From Skermanella rosea (GTDB taxonomy: Bacteria > Pseudomonadota > Alphaproteobacteria > Azospirillales > Azospirillaceae): a DNA stretch of 64,000 bases. The translations under genes and the position numbers were made by a program. Positions 35,766-48,171 of this stretch are shown one piece after another. Within the stretch, counting starts at the first letter, position 1. Each line of letters starts with the position of its first letter. The stretch covers positions 124,001 to 188,000 of the forward strand of contig NZ_CP086114.1 of assembly GCF_016806835.2 (NCBI RefSeq). Direction: 5' to 3'. Below the pieces are notes generated by a model, which worked only from the letters and a program-made list of their open reading frames with translations, ran no database searches and was not told the origin of the DNA.

Positions 35766-35948
35766 GAAACGTCAGCCTTTCTCTCCGTCCGCGGGCGGGT
35801 CGGAGGTGTTTTCGCGTTGGAAGAGCAGGGCGGGGGGCGGTGACGGTGTCATGCCTGTGATGTTCGTCCGGGGACCCTCGGCACTTCGTTGCTCCCGGCC
35901 GAGTGTCTTCGCACGCTGTCCTGGCTGGTTTGCTTCGGTCGGTTCGCC

Positions 35949-36044
35949 GTAGGTCGGCCTCGGCCGAAGGCCGACGCCGACAGCGTGGCCGGAACGTCGA
36001 TGCCGGGTGTCGGCGTTCGCCCTGACGGGCGAAGGCCGACCTAC
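35949..36044. repeat. REP-like inverted pair
   Basis: GTAGGTCGGCCT at 35949-35960 is matched in inverse orientation by AGGCCGACCTAC at 36033-36044, each followed inward by further self-complementary Gly/Cys-rich hairpin sequence (GCCGAAGGCCGAC; GTTCGCC with GGGCGAA). This is the layout of a REP doublet. It lies upstream of the GH13 gene and next to the first copy of the 113-bp repeat. Confidence 0.65.
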
Positions 36045-36075
36045 GATACTCCGGGCCATGAGAACCACTGGGCTG

Positions 36076-36189
36076 GCCGCAGATGTCAGCATAGGTCATG
36101 ACGGCGCGGCTGTTCGATTCACGGTGCAAAGATCCCGCGCCGAAGCGCCGGGAGACCTTAGCAGAATATCTTAAAGGAATAGTATCCTG
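36076..36189. repeat. Dispersed 113-bp repeat, copy 1
   Basis: Shares with the copies at 37174 and 38272 the order GCCGC-GATGTCAGCAT-GTCATG, GATTCACG-TGCAAAGATCCCGCG, CGCCGG-GGAG, ATCTT-TAAAGGAA and TATCCTG. AAGATCC near the middle faces an ATCTT about 30 nt later, so the second half can fold as a hairpin. It abuts the broken end of the hipA fragment. Confidence 0.8.
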
Positions 36190-36206
36190 TCTGCGCCGGA
36201 AGAGAT

Positions 36207-36425
36207 CTATTGGGTACGAAGTGGCAGGCGCGTGTATGCGCCGATATTCGCATTCACCAGGGCCTCCGGGCCGAAGGCTCCCCCGCCGAGCGGCATCCCG
36301 AGCGATACCGGGAACGCCCCCCGCGTCTTCGGCCATCGGGGGTCGTAGGCGAAGGCAGGCCCCTCCCCGGCGAGCGTGATCTCGCCGACGACGAGATGCT
36401 CGTAATAGACGGGAAGCGTGCTCAC
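36207..36425 (-). pseudogene. hipA: Truncated hipA (N-terminal domain only)
   Basis: A 72-aa reading frame that matches the first domain of HipA (HipA N1): STLPVYYEHLVVGEITL, then GPAFAYDPRWPKTRGAFPVSLGMPLGG. A complete HipA serine/threonine kinase toxin has about 400-440 aa; the whole kinase domain is missing. It overlaps hipB by 4 bp (GTGA), the normal hipBA arrangement. The break occurs within about 20 bp of the repeat copy at 36076-36189, which suggests that recombination at the repeat removed the toxin. The product should be non-toxic. Confidence 0.72.
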
Positions 36426-36736
36426 GCCTCGTCTCCCAGGTCGGGGAGGTCCGGGTAGGCGTCGCCGGGTCCGGGCAGCGTGTCGGCGGACGGAACCGCG
36501 GCGGTGTCGGCCATGGGTCCATGACCCGCCGTCTGGTGGGTCAGCCGGATGCCGAGGCCCTTGGCGACGGCTAGGGCCTTGCCGAGCTGGCACGTCGGCT
36601 TGCCGCTTTCCAGATCGACGATGAACCGCTCGCCGACATTGACCGCCAGCGCGAGGTCGCGCTGGGTCATGCCGAGGGCTTGCCGTCGCGAGCGGACGAG
36701 GCTGCCGAAGCGGCCCGGCGTGTCGATGAAGTCCAT
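36422..36736 (-). CDS. hipB: HipB-like XRE antitoxin/repressor
   Basis: A 104-aa DNA-binding protein. The XRE helix-turn-helix is complete (GMTQRDLALAVNVGERFIVDLESGK, about 22-46, read as two adjacent helices), and an Ala/Pro/Asp-rich tail follows. In intact hipBA systems HipB neutralises HipA and represses the operon. Here hipA is truncated, so HipB remains as a likely autorepressor acting at the three TTCCCG-N2-CGGGAA sites upstream. ATG 36736 has GGGGAA nearby. It could also regulate related sites elsewhere in the genome. Confidence 0.8.
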   Translation of the reverse strand: MDFIDTPGRFGSLVRSRRQALGMTQRDLALAVNVGERFIVDLESGKPTCQLGKALAVAKGLGIRLTHQTAGHGPMADTAAVPSADTLPGPGDAYPDLPDLGDEA

Positions 36737-36750
36737 GACGTTCCCCGTTC

Positions 36751-36764
36751 TTCCCGAGCGGGAA
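36751..36764. promoter_or_regulatory. HipB operator candidate 1
   Basis: TTCCCG-AG-CGGGAA is a perfect 6-bp inverted repeat, 15 bp upstream of the hipB start codon. Two similar sites follow at about 50-bp intervals. Confidence 0.6.
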
Positions 36765-36796
36765 GATGATGCCGTATCTCTCCCGGATCAAGGCGG

Positions 36797-37100: not shown

Positions 37101-37173
37101 TTCCGGCATGGGCGGACCCGGCGGCGCGGCCGGCGGGAGCCCCGATGCGCGGCTATGCCGTGGCATGGATAAG

Positions 37174-37288
37174 GCCGCCGATGTCAGCATATGTCATGAC
37201 GGCGCTGCTTTCTGATTCACGATGCAAAGATCCCGCGTCGAGACGCCGGCGGGAGTGTAGCGGATCTTCGTAAAGGAATAATATCCTG
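37174..37288. repeat. Dispersed 113-bp repeat, copy 2
   Basis: Very similar to copy 3 and less so to copy 1. The anchor ATGTCAGCAT at 37181 is exactly 1098 bp from the same point in copy 1 (36083) and in copy 3 (38279). It lies downstream of the HTH antitoxin gene of the brnT module. Confidence 0.8.
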
Positions 37289-37413
37289 CGAACAGGGTGC
37301 CGGCATACGTCCTTCAATCGGGCACAGCCCCGGAGAAGCCGCATCCAGGCCGTCGAAGCGCCCTGTGGTTGCCCGCCATCCTCATGCAAGGAGACCGGAT
37401 CGCCATCCGACGA

Positions 37414-38176: not shown

Positions 38177-38384
38177 CAAACGTCTACATTCGTGACGGTG
38201 GTGTCATCACGGCCCGTGCGAGTGGGGTGCTATACCGGTGGGACCGTGTTGACGGAGCGGGGTGGGGCAGGGCCGCGGATGTCAGCATCTGTCATGGTGT
38301 CCTGGTTCCTGATTCACGATGCAAAGATCCCGCGCCGATGCGCCGGGGGAGTGTAGCGGATCTTCGTAAAGGAACTCTGTCCTG
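38177..38384. repeat. Dispersed repeat, copy 3 (head plus 113-bp part)
   Basis: The longest copy: the head (38177-38271) runs directly into the 113-bp part (38272-38384). The latter carries GCAAAGATCC (38321-38330) facing GGATCTTCGTAAAGG (38358-38372), an inverted repeat across a 27-nt GC-rich loop. It lies upstream of brnT. No reading frame in it looks genuine. Confidence 0.78.
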
Positions 38385-38856
38385 CCCGCATCGAGGGAAA
38401 CGGATAGCGACCGAAATACGAAAAGCATGTGCGCGCCAAAATCGCAACCATCGTTCATACGCGTTGACACGCGACGCGCTCTCGTCGCAGAGTCACCATG
38501 CCCAGGTACCCGCCGGGCGGTCGAGCCAGAGAACGGCAATTCCCCAGCTCGACCTGACCACCGATGCTACTGCTTAAGGACCACACCGATGGCTGATGTC
38601 ACGTTTAGCACAACCGGCGCGCTGTTGCGCCAATCTTTGTTCTCCGCCGCCGCAGTGGTTTCGACCGCTGCGGCGGCGGGAACACCCGTCGTCGCCTGCG
38701 CCGGAGTCTGAGCCCGGACCACTGCTGAAACAGGACCGCGATACGGCAGAAGGGCCGGTTTTCGGCGAGCGCTTGGCGCTTTCCGGAGCAGGGGCTTTGG
38801 CTGCCTGAAGTCGCTGCCCGATCCGATCCAGACCCGACATGAAGGCGCGATCCGAC
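38385..38856. other. Intergenic region without recognised gene
   Basis: About 470 bp between repeat copy 3 and the next credible gene. It contains an Ala/Arg-poor, GC-rich stretch with the inverted pair CCGCCGCAGTGG / CCGCTGCGGCGGCGG near 38647-38679. No conserved coding signal, RNA gene or terminator was recognised. Confidence 0.4.
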
Positions 38857-39141
38857 ATGAACGACGACGATTCCCGCGACGGGGAACGGGGCGACCCGTC
38901 CGCGATTCCATTCTCCTTGCCGTCTCCCGCACCTTCCTCGGTGCCATCCTCGGCGATGACCCAGGCTCTCGACATCCTCGGCCAGTTGAGGGATTTCGGC
39001 GTGACGCTGACCGAAGTGGAGCCGACCGACGCCATGGTGGCCGCCGGCATGGCGGTTTCCGGCATCGACGCGGAGCGCACGCGCGCCATTTTCCGCGCCA
39101 TGGTCGCGGCGGGCGGCGCCCCGGCGCCCCGTCTGCAATAG
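38857..39141 (+). CDS. Hypothetical protein
   Basis: A 94-aa protein with an acidic, Pro/Ser-rich first half and a helical second half containing TEVEPTDAMVAAGM and IDAERTRAIFRAMVAAGG. This resembles short prophage or gene-transfer-agent accessory proteins, but I do not recognise a family. ATG 38857 is chosen over an in-frame ATG at 38839 because AAGG lies upstream. The next gene begins 27 bp later, so the two probably form an operon. Base composition is like the rest of the replicon, unlike the AT-rich gene that follows. Confidence 0.5.
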   Translation: MNDDDSRDGERGDPSAIPFSLPSPAPSSVPSSAMTQALDILGQLRDFGVTLTEVEPTDAMVAAGMAVSGIDAERTRAIFRAMVAAGGAPAPRLQ

Positions 39142-39168
39142 CGGCCTGCTCTGGGCGAGGGGACGACG

Positions 39169-39678
39169 ATGACAGGCTTTCCGTACCCGGCCGGCGAGTA
39201 CCGCTATCCGGGCTTCCGCTGGCTGACGGGGCATCCGGTGCTGGATGCGCTGCTGACGCTGTGGCGCGATAACCAGAACTGGCCGGAGCGCCGGCCGCCG
39301 CGCTATTCGGAAATCGGGCCGCTCCTGCTGATCCCCGGCTGCGCGAACTTCGTGCTGGCGCGGGACCCCGGCGGCATGCGCCCGCCGATCTGCGACGGCC
39401 TGTTCCCGTCGGCGGCCGTGCTGCTGGGATTGCCGCGCGATTTCGGCGGCACGGACTGGCGCGATAAGGCCCGATCGCGCAAGGTGGGCACGCTGGTCCG
39501 GAAGGTGGCGCGCGGTCAGGCGGCGGCGCGGGGGATGATTTCGGCGGGACCGCGGACATACAATCCGGGCGGCCCGCTGGTCGCGCTCGGCGTTCCGCTG
39601 GCGCCCGAGCCGCAGAGGGCGGCGGGGCGGGATCGCGGGGTGATCCTGGCGGTAGCTTGGCCGGTGCGGGGGGTGTGA
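39169..39678 (+). CDS. Hypothetical protein
   Basis: A 169-aa protein. The N-terminal part (GHPVLDALLTLWRD, then PPRYSEIGPLLLIPGCANFVLARD) weakly recalls the start of alphaproteobacterial PAS_5-type proteins, where a W-R helix and a P-R-x-D segment precede strands. The basic C-terminal third (DKARSRKVGTLVRKVARGQ) could bind nucleic acid. No family is assigned. ATG 39169 has GAGGGG 7 nt upstream. It is the last GC-rich gene before the AT-rich island. Confidence 0.5.
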   Translation: MTGFPYPAGEYRYPGFRWLTGHPVLDALLTLWRDNQNWPERRPPRYSEIGPLLLIPGCANFVLARDPGGMRPPICDGLFPSAAVLLGLPRDFGGTDWRDKARSRKVGTLVRKVARGQAAARGMISAGPRTYNPGGPLVALGVPLAPEPQRAAGRDRGVILAVAWPVRGV

Positions 39679-40082
39679 CGAGTCACAGATTCTGGAGATG
39701 AAATTCAGAATTAAATTTTTGTAGAGTAAGGAATGATTGTCAGGCTTTGGGCCTCAATCTATGGCAACGCTCCAACAGTGAAACACGTAAAGTCAAAAAA
39801 CAAATTTTTGGGAATCAAATACTAAAAATACAGCAGTGAGATAATACAGGTTGTATACAATAAAAAAAAGCCATTATGGATTTGACGGTGGTATATTTTT
39901 TCCAAGTAACTTAAATTATTGCCTTAAATTACTCCAAAATTAGGCACCAGTTCATCATCGAATGAAGATATAACTGAGATTTCTGTAATTGCGTGAAGCA
40001 TTTGTTTCGGAGAATTAAATTATCGATGTTCAATTCTTAGGTTGTGTAGGGGCAAACCCAGGTTCGCCTGGATTGAGAAATT
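39679..40082. other. AT-rich left flank of the helicase-nuclease island
   Basis: Composition changes sharply just after 39679: about 400 bp rich in A and T with poly-A/T runs and no gene. A perfect palindrome TTGTATACAA lies at 39851-39860 and TTGACG at 39882-39887 may be a -35 box for the following gene, although no good -10 is seen at 17 bp. This is probably the promoter region and the insertion edge of horizontally acquired DNA. Confidence 0.55.
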
Positions 40083-42677
40083 GTGCTTGATATTCGCTCC
40101 CTCTCGCGTCAGCTTAGTTCTAGCGACAAAAAGACAGCCGAGGTACGTGTTGTGGTTGATTTCAAGAGGCATTTAGCAACCAAAAACGTAGATAAGAAGA
40201 TTAACCCCGTAGAAATTTACGACACACTGGATCGGATCAGCGAAAAGGGACCGCTGCGCCCAGCTCAGATCAATGTACTGCAAACTTGGTATGAGCAACA
40301 TCAAAAAGAAAAAGATGTAATACTCAAATTACATACCGGAGCTGGCAAGACTATCACGGGACTGCTCATTCTTCAGTCACGGTTGAATGCAGGATTGGGT
40401 CCGGTAATTTACCTTTGCCCTAATAAATTCCTTGCAGATCAGACCTGTAACCAAGCGAAGGATTTTGGTATCAAGTACTGCAATATTGACAGCCAGGGTT
40501 TGCCTGACGAATTTTGGGACAGCCGTTCAATTCTGATTACACATGTTCAAAAGTTCTTTAATGGAAAGACCGCTTTTGGAGTTGGTGTAAGATCATCAAA
40601 GGTTCATTCTATCGTTATTGATGATGCCCATGCTTGTTTTCCAACTATTAGAAAAGCATTTACTATAGAGGTAGATAATACTCAGCCGCTGTATTCAAGT
40701 ATAATAGGTTTGTTTTCTGGCTCTCTTGCTGATCAGGGTGTTGGAGATTTTGCTGATATAGAGAATAAAGTAGCTTCCGCATTTCTGCCTGTTCCATACT
40801 GGGACTGGCAAGATAAGCTTTCAGAAGTTGCCCAAGCAATATCAAAGTCAGCAAATCTCGACTCAGTAAAATTTGCTTGGCCAGTCATCAAAGATGTATT
40901 GCGTGATTGCTTATGCCTAGTATCTGGTAAGCAAATTACAATAAGCCCTCACTCTCTGCCGTTTAAAGTATTTGGCGCTTACTATAATGCGGAGCAGCGT
41001 ATATTCATGTCTGCTACAATCAATGATGACGCATTTTTAATAAAACATTTAGGAGTTTCACCAAAGGCGGTTTCAGCGCCCATAAAATTCGCCGGAGAAA
41101 AATGGTCTGGCGAGAAGATGGTCCTTATTCCATCACTGATACATGAGAACCTCAACCACGCTAAAATTGTCTCCCATTTCTCGCCGCCAGTTTCAAAGAG
41201 AAATAAAGGTGTTGTTGTCTTAACGCCTAGCTTTGAAAAATCAAAAATTTGGGAGCATTCTGGAGCAGAAGTAGCAAAGAGTGATACAATTGGAGAACTC
41301 ATCGGGCGATTGAAATCTGGAAATTGCGAGAAAACTACTGTTATAGTGAACCGCTATGATGGTATTGATCTCCCTGATGATGCATGCCGTACTCTGATCC
41401 TTGACTCTCGATCGTTTGCTGAGGATCTACTTGATCGATACCAAGAAGTTTGCCGAGCCAATAGTGATGTAATGGAAGGAAAAACTGCTCAGAACATAGA
41501 ACAGGGGATGGGAAGGCATATTAGAGGGGAAAAAGATTATGGAGTAGTTATGCTGATCGATCCTTCTCTCATAAAGGCTGTTCGATCACAGCATGCGCGA
41601 CGCTTCTTTTCAGCCCAAACACGTCAGCAAATCGAAATTGGACTAAAAATCATTGATTTTACGAAAGAAGAACTCAGCGATGGCAAAACTCCAATTGAAG
41701 TATTGGTTTACCTTATCAAACAATGTGTGGAACGTGATGATGGATGGAAAGATTTTTATGTGGAAGAAATGAACAAATTGTCCTTGGATACTAAGAGTGA
41801 CAGCATAGTTGAGATGTTTATTGCTGAGAAGAGTGCGGAAGAGCTTTATGCATCAGGAAATGTTTCTGGTGCATGCTCAAGCTTGCAAAAGTATATTGAT
41901 AAGGCTGGCCTGACAGGGGAGGAGAAGGGCTGGTACTTGCAGGAAATGGCTAGGTACGAATACATTAGGAGCCACATTGACTCGAATAAGCTCCAGATTT
42001 CAGCTCACAGGAATAATAATAGGTTGCTGAAACCGAAAAATGGTATGGTGATTGAGAAGTTGTCTCCATCAGGCCAACGACGGATCGAAGCAGTTAAGAA
42101 GTGGATCAGTGATGCTAAAACTAATGAGGAACTGAGCCTTCGCGTGAACGACATACTAGATGCAATGCAGTTTGGGGTTCTGGCAGACAGGTTTGAAGGC
42201 GCTGTACATAATTTAGGAATCGCATTGGGATTCACGTCGCAACGCCCTGATAAACAGTGGAAAGCGGGACCAGATAATCTTTGGTGCACTAGAGACAATG
42301 AGTATCTACTAATTGAATGTAAGAATGAGGTAAATATAAGCCGGAGGGAGATTTATAAAGACGAAACAGGCCAGATGAATAATGCATGCGCTTGGTTTTC
42401 CGAAAACTATCCTGGATGTAAGCCTGTTTGTATTATGATAATTCCTGGAAGAGAGCTTGCAAATGGTGCGGGTTTCAATTGTGTTGTTAAAGTGATTCGG
42501 AAATCTAACTTAGAAAAATTGCGCCGCAATGTGAGAAGATTTTTCGACGAGTTTTCTAAAGCCGATTTGGCAGATTTATCTGAGGCTCTCATTGACACAG
42601 CTCTTAGGAGCCATAGTCTAACGGTTGAAGACCTGGTCCAAGAGTATTCGGAAGCAGTTAGATCTCATATTAATTGA
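40083..42677 (+). CDS. SF2 helicase (DinG/XPD-like) fused to PD-(D/E)XK nuclease, candidate defence protein
   Basis: An 864-aa protein. Helicase motifs in order: Q-motif-like LRPAQINVL (58-66), Walker A TGAGKT (85-90), DDAH box VIDDAH (178-183), SAT (310-312), NRYDGIDLPDDACR (423-436), and QGMGRHIRGEKDYGVV (474-489), the latter two typical of the DinG/XPD helicase C-terminal domain. No clear four-Cys iron-sulfur motif is seen. A helical linker (about 520-690) leads to a nuclease-like core: Glu705, Asp731 (GPDNLW), Glu745 and Lys747 (IECKNE), Gln764. The start is GTG at 40083 without a good ribosome site. AT-rich codons unlike all neighbours indicate transfer. Function as anti-phage defence is inference. 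Confidence 0.8.
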   Translation: MLDIRSLSRQLSSSDKKTAEVRVVVDFKRHLATKNVDKKINPVEIYDTLDRISEKGPLRPAQINVLQTWYEQHQKEKDVILKLHTGAGKTITGLLILQSRLNAGLGPVIYLCPNKFLADQTCNQAKDFGIKYCNIDSQGLPDEFWDSRSILITHVQKFFNGKTAFGVGVRSSKVHSIVIDDAHACFPTIRKAFTIEVDNTQPLYSSIIGLFSGSLADQGVGDFADIENKVASAFLPVPYWDWQDKLSEVAQAISKSANLDSVKFAWPVIKDVLRDCLCLVSGKQITISPHSLPFKVFGAYYNAEQRIFMSATINDDAFLIKHLGVSPKAVSAPIKFAGEKWSGEKMVLIPSLIHENLNHAKIVSHFSPPVSKRNKGVVVLTPSFEKSKIWEHSGAEVAKSDTIGELIGRLKSGNCEKTTVIVNRYDGIDLPDDACRTLILDSRSFAEDLLDRYQEVCRANSDVMEGKTAQNIEQGMGRHIRGEKDYGVVMLIDPSLIKAVRSQHARRFFSAQTRQQIEIGLKIIDFTKEELSDGKTPIEVLVYLIKQCVERDDGWKDFYVEEMNKLSLDTKSDSIVEMFIAEKSAEELYASGNVSGACSSLQKYIDKAGLTGEEKGWYLQEMARYEYIRSHIDSNKLQISAHRNNNRLLKPKNGMVIEKLSPSGQRRIEAVKKWISDAKTNEELSLRVNDILDAMQFGVLADRFEGAVHNLGIALGFTSQRPDKQWKAGPDNLWCTRDNEYLLIECKNEVNISRREIYKDETGQMNNACAWFSENYPGCKPVCIMIIPGRELANGAGFNCVVKVIRKSNLEKLRRNVRRFFDEFSKADLADLSEALIDTALRSHSLTVEDLVQEYSEAVRSHIN

Positions 42678-42721
42678 GTAAGCATAAATTCGGGATGATA
42701 TCTGGCGTAAATGCCCGGCCG

Positions 42722-42991
42722 CTAGTCGGAGTGTAAGCAGTTGATTGACTTAGAGTGCCTAAAACATAACCGTCGTTCCAGGAAGCGAAAGGTGATGAGG
42801 GCTTCGGCGGGGTGATTGAAGGCGGCAAAGATATCGATCCGGCGTTCGTAGCGTACGGAGATCCGCCGGAATCGGGCGAATCGTGCCTGGGTGCGTTCCA
42901 CCTTCCAGAGGTGCTGGCCCAGGCGCTTGCTGCTGTCGATGCCGCGTCGCGCAATGCGAGGAATGATGGCGCGGCGCAACAACAGCGCCAT
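42722..42991 (-). mobile_element. IS5-family transposase C-terminal remnant
   Basis: An 89-codon open frame whose first about 72 residues match the C-terminal end of IS5/IS427-type transposases: ARRGIDSSKRLGQHLWKVERTQARF, then RISVRYERRIDIFAAF (two adjacent stretches), including the catalytic Glu in VERT. The N-terminal two thirds with the two catalytic Asp residues are absent. It sits between the AT-rich helicase-nuclease gene and the Uma2 gene, marking the right side of the island. It is not mobile by itself. Confidence 0.75.
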
Positions 42992-43003
42992 TCTTAAGAT
43001 TCG

Positions 43004-46956: not shown

Positions 46957-48171
46957 ATGAAAGCGGTTGTATTTCATGGCGTAGGCGACATTCGTCTGGA
47001 TGACGTTCCCGAGCCGAAGATCCAGGATCCCACGGACGCGATCGTCGAGATCACGGCCAGCGCCATCTGCGGCACCGACCTCCACATGATCCGGGGCACC
47101 ATGCCGGGCATGCAGCCCGGCACCATCCTGGGCCACGAGGGGGTCGGCGTCGTCCGGGAAGTCGGCGCCGAGGTGCGCAACTTCAAACCCGGCGACCGGG
47201 TCGTGATCCCCTCCACCATCGGGTGCGGCTCCTGCAACTACTGCCGCTCCGGCTATTTCGCCCAGTGCGACGAGGCCAATCCCAACGGCAAGCTGGCCGG
47301 AACGTCCTTCTTCGGCGGCCCGAAGGAGACCGGCCCGTTCGACGGGTTGCAGGCGGAATATGCCCGCGTGCCGCACGCCAATGTCGGCCTGGTCCGGCTT
47401 CCGGACAACGTCACGGACGACCAGGCGATCATGCTTTCCGACATCTACCCGACGGGCTATTTCGGCGCCGACATCGCGGAGATCCGCGACGGCGACGTGG
47501 TCGCGGTGTTCGGCTGCGGCCCGGTGGGACTGTTCGCCATCCTCAGCGCCTACCAGTTCGGCGCGGCCCGCGTGATCGCGGTCGACGGCATTCCGTCCCG
47601 GCTTGACATGGCGCGCAAGCTGGGAGCCGAGATCGTCAACTACAACGATGAGGACCCGGTCGAGGTGATCCGCAGCCTGACCGGCGGGTCCGGCGCCGAC
47701 CGGGTGATCGACGCCGTCGGCGTGGACAGCGAACGGCCGAAGGTCGGCCCGGCCTCCGGGCAGGCGGAGCAGCAGGCGGGGCAGTTCGAGAAGGAGCGGC
47801 AGCAGATCGCGCCGGAGACCAACACCGACGGCAAGGTCTTCAAGCCGGGCGACGCGCCGTCGCAGGCCGGCACCTGGGCGGTCCAAGCCTGTGCCAAGGC
47901 CGGCACGCTGTCGATCATCGGCGTCTATCCGCAGACCGACCAGTTCTTCCCGATCGGCATGGCGATGAACAAGAACCTGACCCTGACCATGGGCAACTGC
48001 AACCACCGGAAATACGTCCCCACGCTGGTCGGCATGGTGGAGTCCGGCGCGATCGACCCGATCAGCGTCCTGACCAACGTCGAGCCCATGACCGACGTGC
48101 TCACGGCCTACCGGGAGTTCGACCAGCGCAAGCCGGGATGGGTCAAGGTCGAGCTGGTGCCCGGCGTCTAG
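46957..48171 (+). CDS. Zinc-dependent alcohol dehydrogenase (glutathione-independent formaldehyde dehydrogenase-like)
   Basis: A 404-aa medium-chain dehydrogenase. Catalytic Zn ligands are Cys in SAICGTDLH (about 37) and His in GHEGVGVV (about 60). The structural Zn site is GCGSCNYCRSGYFAQC (about 90-105). The NAD-binding GCGPVGLFA motif lies near 180. An insertion of about 50 residues (about 260-315, Gln/Pro/Lys-rich) matches the loop of glutathione-independent formaldehyde dehydrogenases. It probably oxidises formaldehyde or another small alcohol/aldehyde with NAD. AGGAG is 7 nt before the ATG. A long stem-loop follows the stop. Confidence 0.85.
   Translation: MKAVVFHGVGDIRLDDVPEPKIQDPTDAIVEITASAICGTDLHMIRGTMPGMQPGTILGHEGVGVVREVGAEVRNFKPGDRVVIPSTIGCGSCNYCRSGYFAQCDEANPNGKLAGTSFFGGPKETGPFDGLQAEYARVPHANVGLVRLPDNVTDDQAIMLSDIYPTGYFGADIAEIRDGDVVAVFGCGPVGLFAILSAYQFGAARVIAVDGIPSRLDMARKLGAEIVNYNDEDPVEVIRSLTGGSGADRVIDAVGVDSERPKVGPASGQAEQQAGQFEKERQQIAPETNTDGKVFKPGDAPSQAGTWAVQACAKAGTLSIIGVYPQTDQFFPIGMAMNKNLTLTMGNCNHRKYVPTLVGMVESGAIDPISVLTNVEPMTDVLTAYREFDQRKPGWVKVELVPGV

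Follow-up and report, generated by a model that had tools for sequence, protein, structure and literature searches.

A probable horizontally acquired Hna helicase-nuclease at a variable plasmid site in Skermanella rosea

The helicase-nuclease abortive infection protein (Hna) was first described by Sather et al. in Sinorhizobium meliloti (PMC13381803, PMC12445080), for which an abortive infection phenotype has been reported (PMC12445080). Hooper et al. (2026, PMC13381803) describe the S. meliloti protein as a 3'-5' exonuclease of single-stranded DNA (ssDNA) acting without apparent unwinding. ATP inhibits it through a homodimer formed via a loop of HEL1, a phage-encoded SSB releases its nuclease, with a T7-like SSB as the known trigger, and mutations that increase its nuclease activity make the protein toxic to cells (PMC13381803). 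Stimulation by phage SSB is likewise reported for Hachiman and Nhi (PMC13381803). The candidate system PDC-S28 is listed among unpublished systems in PMC11811056, an entry that does not carry the name Hna.

The locus studied here lies in a 64,000-nucleotide stretch of Skermanella rosea DNA (the window). A sequence-only reading had picked out one long open reading frame as a helicase-nuclease candidate for phage defence that could be assigned to no named system. The first part of that proposal stood as to the type of defence; the second did not, since the gene can be named as Hna. Our analyses favour, with a probability of roughly nine in ten, an Hna gene gained by horizontal transfer, whose single protein would defend by abortive infection. 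The identification draws on the agreement of direct match, fold and residues, as a match to PDC-S28 alone would not be proof. A role against phages, as first read, is very probable; Hna is known by experiment as an abortive-infection system in S. meliloti (PMC13381803, PMC12445080). Name, structure and mechanism of the system have all been published, and the candidate is accordingly not new.

The open reading frame was reconfirmed in the whole genome and is open from a GTG over 864 codons. Translation probably starts at the GTG at 40152 rather than at 40083, because residue 24 of the long frame aligns with Met1 of S. meliloti Hna and a GAGG (40140-40143) lies 8 nt before this codon; for the same reasons residues 1-23 of the long frame are thought unlikely to be part of the protein. 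The 864-aa protein of the earlier reading is thus a real frame whose probable product has 841 aa. Unless stated otherwise, residues are numbered in the 841-aa protein, and adding 23 gives the 864-aa numbering. The gene stands alone, as had been proposed: it is the sole plus-strand frame of at least 60 aa within an AT-rich insert, the minus-strand frames there lying inside hna or at the right edge with a transposon remnant. None of 4227 Rfam families reached its gathering score in the window. The coordinates of the features are collected in Table 1.

Table 1. Positions of the hna gene, its motifs and the surrounding insert in the window.
Feature	Position	Strand	Basis
Longest open reading frame, 864 aa	40083..42677	+	Open reading frame list and translation
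hna, probable coding region, 841 aa, GTG start	40152..42677	+	Met1 alignment; GAGG; PDC-S28 match over residues 25-859 (864-aa numbering)
Walker A TGAGKT, residues 62-67	40335..40352	+	Invariant except A64
Walker B box DDAH, residues 157-160	40620..40631	+	Translation and alignments
PD-(D/E)XK core: E682, P707-D708, E722-x-K724, Q741	42195..42374	+	Equivalents in S. meliloti Hna; model
AT-rich, probably foreign insert (~3.1 kb): hna and ~0.47 kb of AT-rich upstream DNA	39679..42750	.	GC per 100 bp; genus search
4278 bp without counterpart in S. mucosa pSM-3 (763 bp with vsr there)	38722..42999	.	Plasmid comparison
Likely transposon remnant at right edge of insert (IS5 in the earlier reading)	42722..42991	-	Copies in same-genus genome G348

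Homology to Hna runs from end to end. Residues 25-859 of the long frame match S. meliloti Hna residues 2-841 at E 8.8e-256 (PDB entries 10uj, 9yhn and 9ykj, which share one matching sequence and are named 'Hna Monomer' or 'Hna Dimer' in Foldseek), and the same residues match PDC-S28 in PADLOC at E 2.3e-303, its models PDLC04986 and PDLC04987 scoring 1006.7 and 417.2 bits. An AlphaFold2 model built from 31 sequences (mean pLDDT 88.3, pTM 0.84) has the Hna monomer 9yhn as its top PDB match (TM 0.94/0.97, rmsd 1.9); the two chains of the dimer structure of Hna rank next. In the C-terminal part the model places a helix (678-691), three strands (695-697, 709-714, 717-723), a helix (736-752) and a strand (757-763), the order given for Hna by Hooper et al. 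(PMC13381803). The single-chain architecture first proposed, a DinG/XPD-like SF2 helicase joined to a C-terminal PD-(D/E)XK nuclease, is borne out in homology, fold and kept residues.

The motifs first quoted are all in place (in 864-aa numbering, TGAGKT 85-90, DDAH 180-183, SAT 310-312 and QGMGRHIR 474-481), and so are the nuclease residues (E705, D731, E745-x-K747 and Q764). All 31 aligned homologues keep the five nuclease residues; in the helicase motifs they keep T, G, G, K and T of Walker A, D, D and H of DDAH, the whole of SAT and, within QGMGRHIR, Q, G, G, R and the final R. The window protein carries the ATP site and SF2 motifs (R36, Q39, GKT 65-67, DDAH 157, SAT 287, QGMGR 451), and its E682, P707/D708, E722, K724 and Q741 are equivalent to E687, P712/D713, E727, K729 and Q746 of S. 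meliloti Hna. Nine residues mutated by Hooper et al. in S. meliloti Hna (R36, Q39, P712, D713, E727, K729, T30, D31 and P34; PMC13381803) were followed through an alignment of 41 sequences, of which 36 are close (window included) and five distant. In S. meliloti numbering, R36, Q39, D713, E727 and K729 are each kept in 36/36 close sequences and P712 in 35/36, the window protein included. The dimer loop varies more: P34 is kept in 33/36, D31 in 27/36 (five have E) and T30 in 4/36 (23 have S). The window protein belongs to the E and S groups, its HEL1 loop reading S30, E31 and P34, which as far as the residues tell is a conservative change from T30/D31.

A rival reading, a repair helicase-nuclease of DinG/ExoDinG type with a housekeeping role, has in its favour Helicase_C_2 and ResIII/DEAD domain matches, a partial match to a type IV CRISPR DinG model (E 6.6e-18), DinG and XPD as the next structural neighbours and a likeness of Hna to ExoDinG noted by Hooper et al. 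(PMC13381803). We regard it as highly improbable. The protein falls far below the DinG family cut-offs (21.8 bits against 547.7 for dinG_rel, 21.7 against 680, and 13.6 against 789), and the non-Hna chains among the 50 Foldseek rows listed reach a TM of at most 0.40 by query length (0.59 by target length), against 0.94 for Hna, the first non-Hna protein being F. magna DinG (9kqh, TM 0.38/0.43). The iron-sulfur cysteine cluster, which the sequence-only reading had found not obvious, is indeed missing from the alignment of 31 sequences: between Walker A and DDAH there is no cysteine quartet and no invariant cysteine, only C89 reaching 90% of the sequences. This is explained by Hna itself, described as having no canonical XPD/DinG Fe-S cluster (PMC13381803). 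Further points against this rival are the patchy spread of PDC-S28 (1/5 genomes of the genus, 2/82 of the family and 6/385 drawn from the class, own genome counted in each) and a gene that is solitary and foreign in composition.

The unusual composition was noted in the earlier reading. GC is 0.42-0.47 in kilobases 40-43 of the window, whereas the kilobases of the 28-40 and 43-56 kb ranges have 0.605-0.730; the hna gene has 42% GC, and its GC3 of 0.37 compares with 0.92 for a dehydrogenase gene nearby (46957-48168). The borders are sharp: in steps of 100 bp, GC drops at ~39.7 kb from 0.72 to 0.37 and climbs again at ~42.8 kb from 0.50 to 0.63. The DNA at 39679-40160 matched nothing but itself in the five genus genomes. 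The insert is probably foreign, and the gene looks horizontally acquired. Inverted repeats across the insert are weak, the longest having 37 nt at 70% and both its arms beyond the AT-rich DNA, and we claim no ends of a mobile unit. The GC-rich piece to its left (38722-39678) is thought unlikely to belong to it, parts of 38753-39515 having relatives at 66-91% elsewhere in the five genus genomes. Two frames of 100 and 169 aa lie at 38839-39678; diverged relatives of them are scattered in Skermanella genomes, and neither matches a Pfam or PHROG family at E 0.01.

At the edges of the insert, a bordering Uma2 gene named earlier is real (PF05685, E 5.3e-19). The IS5 remnant of the earlier reading is likely a transposon remnant, as the DNA at 42.72-42.98 kb recurs in at least five copies at 86-88% in one same-genus genome; the name IS5 was left unconfirmed by the absence of a Pfam match at E 0.01 for the frame concerned.

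The same foreign composition would also suit a genuine Hna with little or no expression, a newly arrived passenger held down by xenogeneic silencing of its AT-rich DNA and giving no protection at present. A scan for sigma-70-like sites found none upstream of hna on its strand (seven in all over 4.2 kb, shuffled sequence giving 5.2 plus or minus 2.2), and an approximately two-fold difference in hna expression is reported to decide between strong and weak protection in S. meliloti (PMC12445080). The intact frame, the full set of catalytic residues and a plausible Shine-Dalgarno sequence argue against long disuse, and we hold a silent passenger to be quite unlikely.

The window lies on a 329-kb contig, one of seven in a genome of 7.76 Mb, which we infer is probably a plasmid. 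Plasmid pSM-3 of Skermanella mucosa (307,911 bases) is 92-98% identical to this contig over the main shared parts; it matches the window up to 38721 and resumes from 43000. In the place of hna, beside the same Uma2 gene, pSM-3 carries vsr, annotated as a very short patch repair endonuclease (165075-165497). The site is a variable plasmid site with changing nuclease cargo, since vsr stands in one plasmid where hna stands in the other. In the flanks lie a helix-turn-helix gene, by its position hipB, beside a hipA piece, and genes for a BrnT toxin and Uma2.

Further observations were made in this flank. The hipA gene at 35841-36791 is truncated to an N-terminal piece (Couple_hipA match) beside the helix-turn-helix gene; pSM-3 carries an annotated hipA of 1371 bp, and the two plasmids differ between window positions 35840 and 36255. 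A repeat of ~115 bp occurs three times, at 36075-36189, 37173-37289 and 38271-38385, with a spacing of 1098 bp, around the helix-turn-helix gene with the hipA piece and the gene for BrnT. The S. mucosa plasmid has copies at 80-94%, and other contigs from the genus have weaker ones.

Relatives of the window protein are widespread. Among 46 stretches matched by pattern, 35 encode one, and by record title they come from Bacillus and Paenibacillus kin, Proteobacteria, Bacteroidetes, Planctomycetes, Acidobacteria, Cyanobacteria, Leptospirales and others. The best relative found, from Neobacillus, is 54% identical, and the 182 of 72,556 plasmid records that hold a relative all do so below 60% identity, so that no close donor is named. 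A firmicute origin is suggested by the nearest tree paths only, and we do not claim it. In the tree the window protein lies inside the close Hna group and in no supported subgroup, S. meliloti Hna being in another, supported one. This scatter fits the repeated transfer of hna reported for the gene (PMC12445080).

Of the plasmid records with a relative, 103 are predicted conjugative, and the window protein has a full-length match (E 1.4e-117) to phrog_16128, a family of phage proteins of unknown function. Together with the probable plasmid location, these data raise the prospect of a weapon used among mobile elements, by which a plasmid or prophage excludes its rivals, as opposed to a defence of the host strictly speaking. 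Just one of 50,697 phage records matches at E 1e-30, a 501-kb record named as Salmonella enterica; we consider such a role unlikely, and it would be compatible with the main Hna reading, changing only who benefits.

The genomic neighbourhoods of relatives, which the sequence-only reading had proposed to score for defence genes, bear on the Hna identification from another side. Counting PADLOC models and not proteins, 158 models were hit at E 1e-20 among 140 genes lying within 4.5 kb of 29 relatives, against 18 (mad3, ZorD, DpdE, DrmD) among 122 genes from arbitrary stretches of the window's class, a rough comparison in that the control comes from one class and the relatives span many phyla. 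The 140 genes are a random draw from 204, from 29 of 30 relatives, and the control genes are the first 122 of 128; genes below 100 aa were uncalled and those above 1200 aa dropped. Among the 25 models listed of the 158 are Lamassu (LmuA, LmuB), type IV restriction enzymes, type I/II methyltransferases, Druantia DruM and JetC. The relatives' neighbourhoods are thus, roughly, defence-rich, a result that we take as support and no more. Of four annotated plasmid neighbourhoods (rows 1, 2, 3 and 5 of the plasmid matches), three hold genes that, judged by their annotation alone, are of kinds common in defence: a TIR-domain gene on a Niallia plasmid, an AAA ATPase and a UvrD-type helicase on the Rhizobium NLR16a plasmid, and a SIR2 gene on a Spirosoma plasmid. 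The fourth, of Rhizobium ACO-34A, shows no defence gene; its genes are annotated as metabolic, regulatory or hypothetical.

Given a fold and active sites the same as those of S. meliloti Hna, the window protein most likely works in the same way. Its N-terminal SF2 helicase half (HEL1, HEL2) would bind ATP and pair into a homodimer at rest, keeping the C-terminal PD-(D/E)XK nuclease inactive. A phage SSB would open the ATP-restrained dimer and free the 3'-5' ssDNA exonuclease, which would then degrade single-stranded DNA in the 3'-5' direction, so that phage replication would fail and the cell be lost. Biochemical activity, triggering by SSB and abortive infection come from work on the S. meliloti protein, from which we infer the same action in Skermanella. 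The present data show homology over the full length, the shared fold, the kept residues of the catalytic and ATP sites, a foreign composition, a patchy spread and, roughly, neighbourhoods of relatives that are rich in defence genes.

The family to which this mechanism applies may be narrower than PDC-S28. Since S. meliloti Hna and PDC-S28 both match the window protein end to end, Hna would fall within PDC-S28. Five distant members of PDC-S28 in the class are 24-31% identical to the window protein and score 331 to 1050 bits; the highest score, above that of the window protein, belongs to a 30%-identical member without the Hna dimer loop. In these five, R36, P34 and T30 are each kept in 0/5 and D31 in 1/5, whereas Q39, P712 and E727 are each kept in 5/5 and D713 and K729 in 4/5; the five sit on long branches, which makes their N-terminal alignment (dimer loop, R36) less sure than that of the nuclease part. 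Judged from these alignments, PDC-S28 is wider than Hna, because it has distant full members without R36 and nearly all of the dimer loop. A bolder and fairly unlikely proposal would take the nuclease kept by such members as a hint that autoinhibition by an ATP dimer arose late or locally in a larger family of nucleases. It would also see the window copy as a separate, unplaced Hna lineage from an AT-rich donor, which has a changed dimer loop (S30/E31) and may sense a trigger other than a T7-like SSB.

The finding of an orphan gene can now be given the name Hna with high confidence, which places Hna in Skermanella (Azospirillaceae), at a plasmid site where a sister species has a different nuclease gene, vsr. 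The window copy looks otherwise ordinary for Hna. The interest that remains is small and lies in a foreign, diverged member at a variable plasmid site and in the distant PDC-S28 members lacking nearly all of the autoinhibition loop. As an ortholog that has diverged but stayed intact and whose dimer loop varies naturally, the protein should be useful for testing the ATP-dimer switch and the SSB trigger across the family.

Compared with known systems, the window protein shares with Hachiman (HamAB), Gabija and Nhi the principle of defence by helicase and nuclease, but none of their PADLOC models matches it at E 1. DinG, XPD, CasDinG and ExoDinG have the SF2 helicase core and the reduced Arch (PMC13381803) in common with it; it differs from them by the missing Fe-S cysteines, the C-terminal PD-(D/E)XK nuclease and a TM of 0.38/0.43 to the best-ranked DinG. 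PDC-S28 matches it end to end and differs in being wider than Hna. From Hna of S. meliloti pSymA, the window protein is set apart by an identity of 46% in the structural alignment, by S30/E31 in place of T30/D31, by its position outside the supported tree group of that protein and by an AT-rich gene in a GC-rich host. The two nevertheless agree in length (841 aa in the window, 845 aa in S. meliloti), domain order, single-gene organization, GTG start, the catalytic and ATP-site residues mutated by Hooper et al., absence of the Fe-S cluster and an overall fold superposing at TM 0.94/0.97.
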